Shown here piece after piece: positions 8 through 57,500 of a stretch of DNA of 57,500 nucleotides. Below the pieces are notes generated by a model. It was not told the DNA's origin, searched no databases, and saw only the letters and a list, made by a program, of their open reading frames with translations. The stretch lies in the NCBI GenBank assembly GCA_023250635.1, contig JAHFAI010000006.1, forward strand, positions 1-57,500. Reading direction: 5' to 3'. The position numbers and the translations under genes were made by a program. The first letter of the stretch is position 1, and each line of letters opens with the position of its first letter. This DNA comes from Deltaproteobacteria bacterium. GTDB taxonomy: Bacteria > Bdellovibrionota_B > Oligoflexia > Oligoflexales > Bog-1112.

Positions 8-165
8 TAGTCGCTGGCGCGAAATAGCATATTTCGTGCCGCGACGTGTCCTGAGGAGCAAAGCGACGAAGGATCTGTCACGTGATATCCGGATGTTATG
101 TGAAAGATCCTTCCTCACTGTGTTCGTCAGGACACGGCGCTGGCGCTTTCGCGCCAGCGCCGTGT
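8..165 (+). repeat. Element A copy 1: modular fold-back repeat
   Basis: Three nested structures are visible. A left hairpin occupies 10-45 (arms gtcgctggcgcgaaata and tatttcgtgccgcgac). A fold-back core spans 45-136, closed by CGTGTCCTGA (45-54) and TCAGGACACG (127-136), with a second stem GAAGGATCT/AGATCCTTC inside. A right hairpin at 132-165 has 15-base perfect arms and a TTTC loop. TAACTA lies directly to the left (4-9). The right hairpin ends on the first base of the stop codon of the muramidase-like gene on the minus strand, so it may also act as that gene's 3' structure. The core differs from that at 52835-52926 at one base in 92. Confidence 0.9.
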
Positions 166-31836: not shown

Positions 31837-33384
31837 TTACTTCCTCTCCAAGCTCCGCTTCTCCAAATTCTCAAGAGCTGGCCCTTCGATCACCCGCCCC
31901 TCCAGGTCAAAGCGAGAGGAGTGACAGGGGCAATCCCAGGACTTTTCCAAGGGATTATATCTAACGATACAGCCGAGATGGGTACAGACAGCAGAAACAC
32001 ATTGATAAGCATCGGCACCCTGGCGATACACAGCTAATTTTTTGCAGCCATGGTTGATAACCCCCCCCTCACCCACTTCAATGTCAGCGAGCGCTTCCTT
32101 AGAGGGAAGATACCTTCCGGCGAGAAAGTGGCAACTCACCTCAAAACCCTCTTGGATTACCGCTCGTAAAGAGCGAATCATTGCGCAGCGTTCGGATTGA
32201 TAGAGATCTGCCCAAGGGTTTTTGCGTTTAAGAATCGAATCACTGACAATCATGCCTGCTAGACTACCAAAAACCAGACCGTCGGCAGAAAATCCCGTCA
32301 TGTAGTAAAGTTTTTCCGAATCCTTACCTATATAGGGAAGAGCATCGGCAGAATAATAGGACTGTGCCGCCCATCCGTAGCGTTCATTACCGAGAACAAA
32401 ACGTTCTCCGAGGTATCGCTCGAAGGTTGCAAAGGGGGTTTCGCTAGCGGTCCGATGTCCGGTTTTATGAAGGTCACCGATCAATACTAAATAATGCTTT
32501 TTCTCTTTATTACTATAGCGCCGTAAGGAATATTCCTCGTGGTCAATGCCCCAGAAAATACCCGGAGGCATCGCCTCGTCAATGGTGTCGACCGCCAAGG
32601 CTATTTCCCGTATCCCCGCAAGTTTGATTTGCATGGTCAAAAAACCTTTAGGAATATGGGTTGCCATTACTACAATTTTGCCACTGAGCTCTCCTTCCCC
32701 TGTAAAGACCCTTGCTCCCTGGGCATCGATTCGTAGCACTGGTGACTGCTCGTACACCTTTACCGAGGGGGGCAACTGTTTCGCTAGGCCCCGAACATAA
32801 GCGAGGGGATTGATCTGCCCTTGATTGGCGATACGTAGGAGCCTATCGACGGCAAAGGGCAAGGGATTTTGACTAGCTTTGAGCTTCTTTACCGCGAACT
32901 GACAGACTCGAGCTGCCGCTAGCTCTCGGGCAAGAAAGCTCTCACCTTTGGTCGATGATTTTTCTAAATAGTAGTGAAACGGCACTCGCTTGAAATCGCA
33001 GTCGATGCCATTGGTAAAAACCAGCTCTTCCATAAAGTCTATGGCCCGAGCACGAGATTGATACACTCGTTTGGCAGTGGTGCTTCCATAGGACGAAAGA
33101 ATTGCGCTAAGAGGCGTACTGGTGAGTTCATAGAGATTGCCGGTGGAGCAGGCGGTTGTCCCCATGCCGATTTTTCGAGCTTCAATCACGGCAACCGCAA
33201 TACCTGCCTTACCCAAAAGATATGCGGTAGTAAGTCCGCTTATTCCACCGCCAATGATGATCACCTCGGTGCTTTCACTGCCTTGTAGCTGAGGAAAACT
33301 CTGGGCGGCGCCTCCCGTGGCTTCCCACAGGGACTGCAAGGGCAATGAATTCTTGGTCTGCATATATTTCCCGCTCTTAGGCAT
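31837..33384 (-). CDS. FAD-dependent oxidoreductase with C-terminal Rieske domain
   Basis: A 515-residue fusion. The N-terminal part is a DAO-type flavoprotein with the dinucleotide motif VIIIGGGISGLTTAYLLGKAG; the last 60 residues are a Rieske [2Fe-2S] domain with CTHLGC (C467, H469) and CPCH (C485, H488). This architecture matches the YhfW-like family, whose substrate is unsettled. Electrons presumably pass between the flavin and the cluster. An alternative start at the second Met (33363, preceded by GGGA) would trim seven residues and has the better ribosome site. It is in a minus-strand run, 83 bases after the nucleotidase gene, and its 3' end touches a decayed repeat hairpin. Confidence 0.88.
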   Translation of the reverse strand: MPKSGKYMQTKNSLPLQSLWEATGGAAQSFPQLQGSESTEVIIIGGGISGLTTAYLLGKAGIAVAVIEARKIGMGTTACSTGNLYELTSTPLSAILSSYGSTTAKRVYQSRARAIDFMEELVFTNGIDCDFKRVPFHYYLEKSSTKGESFLARELAAARVCQFAVKKLKASQNPLPFAVDRLLRIANQGQINPLAYVRGLAKQLPPSVKVYEQSPVLRIDAQGARVFTGEGELSGKIVVMATHIPKGFLTMQIKLAGIREIALAVDTIDEAMPPGIFWGIDHEEYSLRRYSNKEKKHYLVLIGDLHKTGHRTASETPFATFERYLGERFVLGNERYGWAAQSYYSADALPYIGKDSEKLYYMTGFSADGLVFGSLAGMIVSDSILKRKNPWADLYQSERCAMIRSLRAVIQEGFEVSCHFLAGRYLPSKEALADIEVGEGGVINHGCKKLAVYRQGADAYQCVSAVCTHLGCIVRYNPLEKSWDCPCHSSRFDLEGRVIEGPALENLEKRSLERK

Positions 33385-33442
33385 TTTTTACCATTAGAGC
33401 GTAAAAGCAACACAAGATCCACGGGCATGCGGTTCGGTTTTG

Positions 33443-33466
33443 GGGACACTCACCGTAATCGAAACT
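33443..33466. repeat. 24-base direct repeat, copy 1
   Basis: An exact 24-base match (starting gggacactcaccg) to 35464-35487, in the same orientation. This copy begins one base beyond the stop codon of the nucleotidase gene on the minus strand, while the other lies inside the end of the gene upstream. The two copies therefore bracket the nucleotidase gene. Confidence 0.85.
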
Positions 33467-35438: not shown

Positions 35439-36599
35439 CTATTTTTTCTCAGGCAGCATTTCAGGGACACTCACCGTAATCGAAACTGATGGTTTTTCCA
35501 ACGGAAAATTACCCATAAAGGTTCCGGCAGCTTTCCCCAAAATCACGCTTAATTCCGCAGCCTGAGAGGAAAAGAGCTGCTCCTCATCCCCAAGAATCAG
35601 CAAGCCTTTACGAGCCCAAAGATTTGCTGATGTGCGATACCCCTTGGCAAGCAGGGACTTTGCCTTATCCAGGCACTCTTGAATCAGCATCTCTTGAGGC
35701 TGTAACCGACAAGCACTGCTATAGGGGGTGGTAAGAACTTCATTGGTCACTTCATCAGCAGAACGGTGCGTCAAGGTGGTTAGCGAAACAAAGTAAGCGT
35801 CAAGGAGACCTTTCTGAATCTCCGCTTTACTGAGTGCGCCATCCATAAAATTCTCACCGAAGCCAATAAAGCTTTCGACATCGTCTCTGCGTACCATTAA
35901 AAGGTTTTCGCCCTGAGCATTGCCCTCGGGAAATAATTCCAAATAATTTTTAACTCCCCGCAGGTAACAAAAATCTCCTGGGCGTAACTGCTCGCAAGGA
36001 ATGCCCACAAAATAATTCCCAATAAAGGAACTAATCACCAGCGGTCGTGAATCTCCTTCTGATAAAGCAAGGCGACGATCAAGGGCACTTAGCGCTTCGA
36101 GATCTATGCCTTTTAGCTGGCAATACAGTGCGAACATATAAGTCTGGGCTAAACCCCGTGCTAAAGTGCAGTCAAGAATAAGTTGGCTCGAATTATAAGC
36201 AAGATCTTCAAGAACATCGAGGATTCTTACTCTCTCTGGAAGAAGTGGCTCATGAGAAATATACGAATCGCCTCCTGAACCATAGGATAAAATCCATAGC
36301 CCTGACAACCTACTGCCCAGTTCATTTCGCTCCAGAACACGCAGGACGTAATCCTCAGCCTCCTCATGGGCTTGACACGGAAATAACGAAGCGTATTGAC
36401 GATCTTCCTGGGTAAGCTGCAATAAGCTTAAGGTCTTATGTTTAGGGAAACGCCCTTTTTCACTTAATTTTTGCAGGAATAATGCCGTCTTATCTATAAG
36501 AACGCCATCGAAACTGCCGGTACCAATGCTTGTGCTTGCCTGCAAATGAGCAGACCAACTCAACAAGAGCATGAAAATAAAGCAAAAAGCGACTTTCAT
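35439..36599 (-). CDS. Exported protein with prokaryotic transglutaminase-like features
   Basis: A 386-residue protein with a signal peptide (MKVAFCFIFMLLLSWSAHLQA). The middle part has the layout of Tgl-type protein-glutamine gamma-glutamyltransferases: an acidic residue-Cys pair in LILDCTLARGLAQTYMF, then LRPGDFCYLRGVKNYLELFPEG, QGENLLMV and FIGFGENFMDG. In the spore-coat enzyme Tgl the Cys is catalytic and a GHG-type site supplies His; here that position is GFG, so the His may be absent or elsewhere. Cross-linking activity is therefore only a suggestion. The C-terminus (VSITVSVPEML) lies inside a 24-base direct repeat also found past the next gene. AAAAGGA precedes the ATG and a promoter lies at 36631-36658. 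Confidence 0.5.
   Translation of the reverse strand: MKVAFCFIFMLLLSWSAHLQASTSIGTGSFDGVLIDKTALFLQKLSEKGRFPKHKTLSLLQLTQEDRQYASLFPCQAHEEAEDYVLRVLERNELGSRLSGLWILSYGSGGDSYISHEPLLPERVRILDVLEDLAYNSSQLILDCTLARGLAQTYMFALYCQLKGIDLEALSALDRRLALSEGDSRPLVISSFIGNYFVGIPCEQLRPGDFCYLRGVKNYLELFPEGNAQGENLLMVRRDDVESFIGFGENFMDGALSKAEIQKGLLDAYFVSLTTLTHRSADEVTNEVLTTPYSSACRLQPQEMLIQECLDKAKSLLAKGYRTSANLWARKGLLILGDEEQLFSSQAAELSVILGKAAGTFMGNFPLEKPSVSITVSVPEMLPEKK
35464..35487. repeat. 24-base direct repeat, copy 2
   Basis: Exact match to 33443-33466, 2021 bases away. This copy encodes the SITVSVP residues at the end of the transglutaminase-like protein, so it is probably the ancestral copy. Confidence 0.85.
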
Positions 36600-36712: not shown

Positions 36713-36750
36713 TAATTAGGCCGTGGCGCGAAAGCGCCACGGCCTAATTA
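36713..36750 (+). repeat. Lone GAAA-loop hairpin of the element A family
   Basis: A perfect 17-pair stem (36713-36729 with 36734-36750) closed by GAAA. Its inner part, GGCCGTGGCGC and its complement, is identical to the left end hairpin of element A at 52810-52835. TAATTA flanks it on both sides. It lies between the end of the SDR gene and the start region of the transglutaminase-like gene. No fold-back core follows, so this looks like a minimal unit. Confidence 0.85.
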
Positions 36751-42508: not shown

Positions 42509-42643
42509 TTCAGATTTAGAAGACTCTTTGCGGCTTTCTTCGTTGCTGCGCGTGCTCACAGTCAGACAGCTGCTCCTGGTCTTGCCTTGAAAACAGCAAA
42601 ACTGCACCAAGCCTTGAGTCGTTAATAATATGCTGAGTAGTTA
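42509..42643. repeat. Element B copy, inverted relative to the 53 kb copy
   Basis: The loop and one arm (42531-42623) match 52972-53093 read in reverse, with the arm ending gccttgagtcgtt. The other arm (42509-42543) is diverged but still recognisable. The tail tgctgagtagtta (42631-42643) is the inverse of the tail joining A to B at 52952-52964. It starts 17 bases before the PhyH start codon. Confidence 0.75.
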
Positions 42644-42720
42644 CTGAAGAAGGTTAATATATTTTCTTTGTTGTCGGCAAGTTGTTTTGCTGCGGCAGCC
42701 TACTGAACTATTGCTCGTTA

Positions 42721-42890
42721 GGCCGTGGTGCGAAAGCGCCACGGCCGTGTCCTGACGAACGCAGTGAGGAAGGATCTTTCAGATAACATCCTGATATCAC
42801 ACGACAGATCATTCGCCGATGCGGCTCAGGACACGGCTCTGGCATCGAAAAGGTAAGCCCTCTGAGGGCTTACCTTTTCGCGCCAGCGCC
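42721..42890 (-). repeat. Element A copy 2: inverted and diverged
   Basis: The left hairpin (42721-42746) is a GGCC-rich stem with a GAAA loop and one G-T pair. The core (42746-42835) is closed by CGTGTCCTGA and TCAGGACACG, and inside it matches the other copies in reverse orientation with scattered changes. The right hairpin has been replaced by a longer one: 15 perfect pairs (42846-42860 with 42866-42880) inserted into its loop. The stop codon of the small lipoprotein gene falls in the right closing arm. Confidence 0.85.
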
Positions 42891-43116
42891 TAGATAGCTG
42901 CTGACGATTGTCCTGGAGATGGGTACAAAAATCTCTGAGCACTGAAGTTGAATGTTTGGCTAAATCATCATTCACGGCACTGACGAGGCTTAAAACTTCC
43001 TCTTTGGTAGAAGCTTTAGCGGAGCTGTCCAAAAAAGAATCACTCTCTGAAATTTTAGAACGTGTCTTACAGCTGAGTACCAGGCTGATAGCAAGCAGAA
43101 CAATTGAAGTATTCAT
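42826..43116 (-). CDS. Small lipoprotein whose 3' end runs into element A
   Basis: A 96-residue product with a lipoprotein signal (MNTSIVLLAISLVLSCKT, lipobox LVLSC), so the Cys would be lipidated in the periplasm. The rest is polar and helical with no recognised domain. AAGGG lies upstream of the ATG. The last 22 codons (about 42826-42890) lie inside element A copy 2, and the stop codon is the first TGA of its closing arm, so the original C-terminus has probably been replaced by repeat-encoded residues (PQRAYLFDARAVS). A ten-base inverted repeat at 43131-43172 lies just upstream. No function can be assigned. Confidence 0.6.
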   Translation of the reverse strand: MNTSIVLLAISLVLSCKTRSKISESDSFLDSSAKASTKEEVLSLVSAVNDDLAKHSTSVLRDFCTHLQDNRQQLSRRWREKVSPQRAYLFDARAVS

Positions 43117-52764: not shown

Positions 52765-52809
52765 ATATCAAGCCTTTGCCGTATATTGTAGTTACAATTT
52801 ACGTAACTA

Positions 52810-52951
52810 GGCCGTGGCGCGAAAGCGCCACGGCCGTGTCCTGAGGAGCAAAGCGACGAAGGATCTGTCACGTGATATCCGGATGTTATGTGAAAGATCC
52901 TTCCTCACTGCGTTCGTCAGGACACGGCGCTGGCGCTTTCGCGCCAGCGCC
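52810..52951 (+). repeat. Element A copy 3: reference copy
   Basis: The left hairpin (52810-52835) has an 11-pair stem GGCCGTGGCGC with a GAAA loop. The core (52835-52926) is closed by CGTGTCCTGA and TCAGGACACG, with the inner stem GAAGGATCT/AGATCCTTC and an inner fold around cacgtgatatcc. The right hairpin (52926-52951) is GGCGCTGGCGC with a TTTC loop. TAACTA sits directly on both sides (52804-52809 and 52952-52957), like a target-site duplication. Element B follows after about 20 bases. Confidence 0.92.
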
Positions 52952-53093
52952 TAACTACTCAGCACTTTTTCAACTACTCAAGGCTTGGTGCAGTTTTGCT
53001 GCTTTCAAGGAGCGAGCAGCAGAGCAGCCGTCTGGCTGTGAGCATGCGCAGCAACGAAGAAAGCAGCAAAACTGCACCAAGCCTTGAGTAGTT
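52952..53093. repeat. Element B: large palindrome with perfect 35-base arms
   Basis: After the joining tail taactactcagca, the arm at 52972-53006 is repeated exactly in reverse at 53059-53093. The 52-base loop holds a smaller stem CAGCC/GGCTG. It follows element A directly and is one of three B copies in the window. No coding content. Confidence 0.92.
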
Positions 53094-57340: not shown

Positions 57341-57402
57341 TAATTAGATTTTACTGAAAAAGGGCGCCTCCCCCGGTGTCCTTTTTCAGCAAAATCTAGT
57401 TA
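57341..57402 (+). repeat. 28-base imperfect palindrome abutting element A
   Basis: Arms at 57341-57368 and 57375-57402 pair along 28 positions around a six-base TCCCCC loop. There are four differences, three of which stay paired as G-U on the plus strand. It lies 45 bases past the small lipoprotein gene and ends where element A copy 4 begins (TAGTTA). It may act as a 3' structure or terminator for that gene, although no T run follows. Confidence 0.75.
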
Positions 57403-57500
57403 GTCGCTGGCGCGAAATAGCATATTTCGTGCCGCGACGTGTCCTGAGGAGCAAAGCGACGAAGGATCTGTCACGTGATATCCGGATGTTATGTGAAAGA
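57403..57500 (+). repeat. Element A copy 4, cut off by the window end
   Basis: Bases 57401-57500 are identical to 8-107 over all 100 positions, in the same orientation, so this is a second copy of the variant with the enlarged left-hairpin loop (gaaatagcatatttc). The core starts at 57438; the right half lies outside the window. Confidence 0.92.

Follow-up and report, generated by a model that had tools for sequence, protein, structure and literature searches.

Bacterial MITEs derived from insertion sequences have been described, among them the QMITEs of Coxiella (PMC5896051), and have been reviewed (PMC10969869). They are short and non-coding, have inverted-repeat ends and a target duplication, and occur in many near-identical copies that form a stable fold-back and carry the ends of an autonomous transposon (PMC5896051, PMC10969869); element A, the interspersed repeat analysed here, has all of these properties. 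It differs from the described MITEs in duplicating six bases of the form TANNTA rather than TA, in its very GC-rich ends, and in an extra fold-back hairpin, variable in sequence and length, that stands between the target and the inverted unit. REPINs and BIMEs (PMC3116915, PMC2817692) likewise consist of two inverted palindromic units with a short spacer and are intergenic and present in high copy number, whereas element A comes with no RAYT gene, a duplicated 6-bp target and a parent whose transposase appears to be of the DDE type.

In our interpretation, to which we give a probability of roughly 0.8, element A is a MITE that derives from a parent transposon inserting at TANNTA and is moved by the IS5/ISNCY-like transposase of that parent. 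This would equip what had been an orphan hairpin repeat with a known end structure, a target site and an enzyme that likely mobilises it. In the titles and abstracts of the literature searched we found no description of an architecture combining an IS5/ISNCY-like transposase and a GIY-YIG nuclease with hairpin-capped ends and a TANNTA target, and related motif strings had no match in the literature searched.

Copies of element A and their target sites

The window, by which we mean the whole stretch of DNA analysed, spans one contig from end to end and is exactly 57,500 bp long. It contains four copies of element A (10–161; 42721–42890, inverted; 52810–52951; and 57403–57500, cut off), with copies 1 and 4 at opposite contig ends. 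The element is a non-coding, nested inverted repeat of ~142–170 bp in which a hexamer is followed by a hairpin, the unit GTGTCCTGA...AAGGATCT, a spacer, the mirrored unit, a hairpin and the same hexamer; the fold-back core of 90–92 bases is closed by CGTGTCCTGA/TCAGGACACG and flanked by one hairpin per side. The four copies, their fold-back cores and paired hairpins, and the single mismatch between copies 1 and 3 in 92 core bases were all reported in the initial annotation of this DNA and are confirmed in the sequence. Copy 1 is real, but the start given for it there, base 8, omits most of the duplicated hexamer TAACTA (4–9). The 100 identical bases reported for copies 1 and 4 are likewise present, although the assembler may have contributed to this identity, since both copies sit at contig ends and the break falls inside the repeat. 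The features are as follows.

4–9, no strand: copy 1, left target hexamer TAACTA
10–45, plus strand: copy 1, left hairpin, 36 nt
46–135, plus strand: copy 1, core, with two inverted units GTGTCCTGA...AAGGATCT plus spacer
136–161, plus strand: copy 1, right hairpin, 26 nt
162–167, no strand: copy 1, right junction GTGTTA, a recurrent variant that differs from the left hexamer
36713–36750, no strand: solo 26-nt hairpin without a core, TAATTA on either side
42715–42720, no strand: copy 2, decayed target hexamer TCGTTA
42721–42890, minus strand: copy 2, older and diverged (hairpin 42721–42746, core 42747–42834, 56-nt hairpin 42835–42890)
42891–42896, no strand: copy 2, target hexamer TAGATA
52804–52809, no strand: copy 3, left target duplication TAACTA
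52810–52951, plus strand: copy 3, complete and the cleanest (hairpin 52810–52835, core 52836–52925, hairpin 52926–52951)
52952–52957, no strand: copy 3, right target duplication TAACTA
57341–57402, no strand: solo hairpin of a second family (GATTTTACTG..., 57347–57396) between TAATTA and TAGTTA
57403–57500, plus strand: copy 4, truncated where the contig stops, left hexamer TAGTTA at 57397–57402

A search of the whole genome found element A outside the window as well, contrary to the confinement that the initial annotation had named as a refutation. Half-units of the pattern GTGTCCTGA-N6-20-AAGGATCT number 194–198 across the 2.63-Mb genome (103 + 91 by pattern), against none in the reversed control, and 53 complete back-to-back pairs and 40 single units were found in the 1.135 Mb that was read (43% of the genome), which includes stretches picked for containing copies. 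Element A DNA had no match in the plasmids or phages searched.

A TANNTA hexamer is found on both sides in 29 of 47 scorable copies, and the two hexamers are identical in 25 of these 29, where 6.4 would be expected from permuted right hexamers and none of 20,000 permutations reaches 25. Because the hexamers match while their middle two bases differ by site (TAGTTA, TAACTA, TAATTA, TACTTA, TATCTA and others), the TANNTA repeat is a real 6-bp target duplication. DDE transposition generally duplicates its target, and HUH transposition is not known to do so. The 6-bp duplication therefore points to a MITE and not to a REPIN and, with the transposon ends that element A shares, bears out the likeness to MITEs suggested earlier. 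A core matching an IS end had been named in the initial annotation as grounds for rejecting its reading of the repeat; the core does match a transposon end, and this identifies the element rather than refuting it. Two findings count against an origin as a MITE: roughly one copy in four is bordered on one side by a GTGTTA junction that does not repeat the opposite hexamer, and no independent empty site was found using joined flanks.

The probable parent transposon and its GIY-YIG gene

The same genome carries a deleted parent (G000:C1, ~32130–33305) in which inverted units lie 1.1 kb apart with TAATTA on each side. Reading from left to right, the locus consists of TAATTA, the hairpin GGCCGTGGCGCGAAAGCGCCACGGCC, GTGTCCTGAGCCGAAGGCGAAGGATCT, a transposase fragment (C-terminal half), a GIY-YIG gene fragment (3′ part), the mirrored unit, a hairpin and TAATTA. 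Its hairpin and unit are found identically in element A copies; the interior of element A beyond the unit is unlike that of the parent, which counts against descent from it. Also counting against it, no intact transposase gene was found in the assembly of this genome, where a search recovered nothing beyond the C1 copy except a stump on C82. Eleven of the contig ends read halt just inside parent ends, four on the transposase side and seven on the GIY-YIG side, as would be expected if a collapsed multi-copy parent had broken the assembly. The initial annotation saw no mobilising gene since the contigs of a multi-copy parent break inside it; its statement holds for the window and nearly for the assembly, but not for the deleted parent on C1 or for a complete relative in another genome. 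The case illustrates how multi-copy parents can be lost from draft assemblies that keep their MITEs.

The complete relative, 2.1 kb long and from a genome of the same order (G041:C18), has TAGCTA on both sides, and between these targets lie a hairpin, GTATCCTGAGCCGCAGGCGAAGGATC, genes for a 465-aa transposase and a 96-aa GIY-YIG protein, the mirrored unit and a hairpin; its inverted repeats are 75 nt long and 91% complementary. In G033:C44 a shorter relative adjoins a GIY-YIG gene and ends in a GATTTTGCTG-type hairpin. Over nearly its whole length the transposase matches the models NF033578 IS5 (174 bits, cut-off 275) and NF033593 ISNCY (143 bits, cut-off 325); it carries the Pfam DUF772 transposase domain, and candidate D, D and E motifs are readable in its sequence (DSTVQE, SADKGYW and RRAGIEPLIGH). 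As these scores lie below the curated NCBIfam cut-offs, its assignment as IS5/ISNCY-like is provisional, and the parent further differs from these families in its GIY-YIG gene and hairpin-capped 75-nt ends. Solved structures contained no convincing relative of the transposase, and its plasmid relatives have less than ~28% identity among the matches listed. In 43 genomes of the order, with kinship ignored, transposase relatives and units co-occur (8/14 versus 4/29, Fisher p = 0.005), and they do so when at least 5 units are counted (6/14 versus 1/29, p = 0.003).

In the mechanism we propose, element A would be two parent-transposon ends joined back to back, each end consisting of a fold-back hairpin, then the unit GTGTCCTGA...AAGGATCT and then a short third block. 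The parent would insert at TANNTA, duplicating six bases, and would encode the putative IS5/ISNCY-like DDE transposase, to which its closest relatives add a small GIY-YIG nuclease. The conserved unit is likely the transposase binding site and TANNTA the presumptive cut and target site; the parent transposase most likely cuts at the TANNTA border and moves element A in trans, and binding of the end may involve extrusion of the hairpin.

One alternative is that the GIY-YIG nuclease is the mobilising enzyme, cutting at or near TANNTA with homing-like or repair-based copying, and that the transposase gene hitchhikes. Three genomes have the nuclease gene next to the transposase within the ends (at G000:C1, G033:C44 and G041:C18), and in G000:C22 related inverted motifs GTCATCCTGAGCGAAGCGAAGGACCT closely flank another small GIY-YIG gene that has no transposase. 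We consider this improbable, however, given that no small GIY-YIG gene was found near transposase relatives in G008, G012 and G025, that the position and strand of the gene with respect to the transposase are inconsistent between copies, and that a fixed 6-bp duplication is the product expected of a DDE transposase. Because small GIY-YIG genes in this order mostly lack flanking units, we do not claim the nuclease as mobiliser, and its role is probably that of a passenger or accessory. A single contig scan gave only two GIY-YIG loci. At the locus on C22 (L159, ~920–1390), the inverted motifs around the gene are followed by tandem motif copies, and this is possibly a related element without hairpins.

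Hairpins at the ends and the origin of their structure

A recognisable hairpin directly precedes GTRTCC in 115 of 167 distinct units from this genome and its relatives (52 failed the hairpin criterion), and TANNTA lies directly outside the hairpin in 86 of the 115. Hairpin length ranges from 25 to 49 nt in the unit scan, with a branched ~56-nt example in window copy 2, and the sequences vary (GGCGCTGGCGC..., GTCTTTGGCGC..., GATTTTGCTG... and GTTTCCATCC... among those found). For 19 distinct hairpins of 26 nt, 97.6% of cells are paired compared with 27–44% in slid controls, a percentage biased upward because the hairpins were collected by a palindrome criterion, and 25 cells have changed on both sides compared with 6.8 in shuffles. 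That the hairpins differ in sequence and length yet covary, and are mostly flush, suggests that a structured end may be what the transposase works on.

Spacing along the duplex varies with hairpin length, and the hairpin abuts both target and unit, so that folding it out would, hypothetically, give a constant distance from unit to cut. One tentative and, in our judgement, doubtful extension is that a DDE transposase recognises the ends through the extruded hairpin, and that the GIY-YIG nuclease could process hairpin or cruciform intermediates. If true, such recognition would be a structure-guided mechanism of DDE transposition, and the variable, flush and covarying hairpins raise the question of whether the distance at an end can be read by a DDE transposase across a folded hairpin instead of along the duplex.

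Template-switch correction of quasipalindromes, a known mutation process (PMC7202029, PMC8794818), is a plainer account of the compensatory stems than a structured end. It is a process acting on the element and not the element itself, and it would explain, in addition to these stems, the GTGTTA junctions and the inverted hexamers of solo hairpins. The GTGTTA junction lengthens the adjoining hairpin through pairing with ACAC on its inner side, and we infer that the junction of copy 1 is a template-switch ‘correction’ of its hairpin. Some solo hairpins have inverted flanking hexamers (TAACTA...TAGTTA, TAGATA...TATCTA), whereas complete copies have direct repeats. Solo 26-nt hairpins with inverted hexamers were seen on contigs C66, C92, C95, C123 and C139 of this genome (G000). 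A duplication of TA only was considered for the solo hairpins and rejected, complete copies repeating six bases directly.

The folding of element A is very strong (predicted at −103.2 kcal/mol for copy 3 versus −50.3 ± 3.6 for shuffles, z = −14.9), and this, with the compensatory stem changes, could also reflect a selected structural element (a terminator, an RNA-stability element or a structured RNA) and not mobile DNA. Just 5 of 42 copies overlap an ORF of at least 90 aa by more than 60 bp, and many lie near gene 3′ ends, as this explanation would have it. We nonetheless find it very improbable, since 6-bp duplications mark insertions at numerous sites that have nothing in common and element A shares its ends with a transposon; moreover, an Rfam search of the window returned tRNAs only, and element A lacks the match to a known ncRNA that the initial annotation had named as refuting its own reading. 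Some copies may still confer a selective benefit.

Movement as REPIN- or BIME-type repeats by a RAYT (Y1, HUH) transposase would account for inverted palindromic units ~30 nt apart in high copy number and at mainly intergenic sites, but it is more improbable still: the genome has no Y1_Tnp match at E <= 0.1, a search in which 8 of 14 control genomes were positive, and the targets are duplicated, unlike in HUH transposition. The resemblance to REP/BIME elements noted earlier thus does not hold in the RAYT sense, and no RAYT gene was found. There is as little to recommend the idea that the abundance and high identity of the copies are mostly artefacts of assembling a short-read bin. Both window ends do break within the repeat, and element A occupies 13 of the 155 contig ends that were read. 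The 53 copies nevertheless have different surroundings, and most carry a matching pair of hexamers of their own, which an artefact would not produce; assembly may have inflated only the exact percent identity.

Other repeats in the genome

Element B (window 42527–42643 and 52972–53093) is a second interspersed repeat, often beside element A, with 35-nt inverted ends CTACTCAAGGCTTGGTGCAGTTTTGCTGC... that contain TAGTTA/TAACTA. At 57341–57402 the window contains a representative of a second family of transposons, whose hairpin is GATTTTGCTGAAAAAGG... and whose unit is GTGTCCNGAG. The interior of this family is not assembled, and its GATTTTGCTG... hairpin is present at five further contig ends (C61, C72, C81, C88 and C119). 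A 29-base repeat, GGGACACTCACCGTAATCGAAACT, lies at 33438–33466 and 35459–35487 of the window, with similar text beside units on C5 and C34. Finally, GAGGTGAGCGAAGGACGAAAAACGAGCT is common to the ends of contigs C7, C60, C62, C78 and C82 and marks a further multi-copy repeat that the assembly does not resolve; on C82 it interrupts a transposase remnant.
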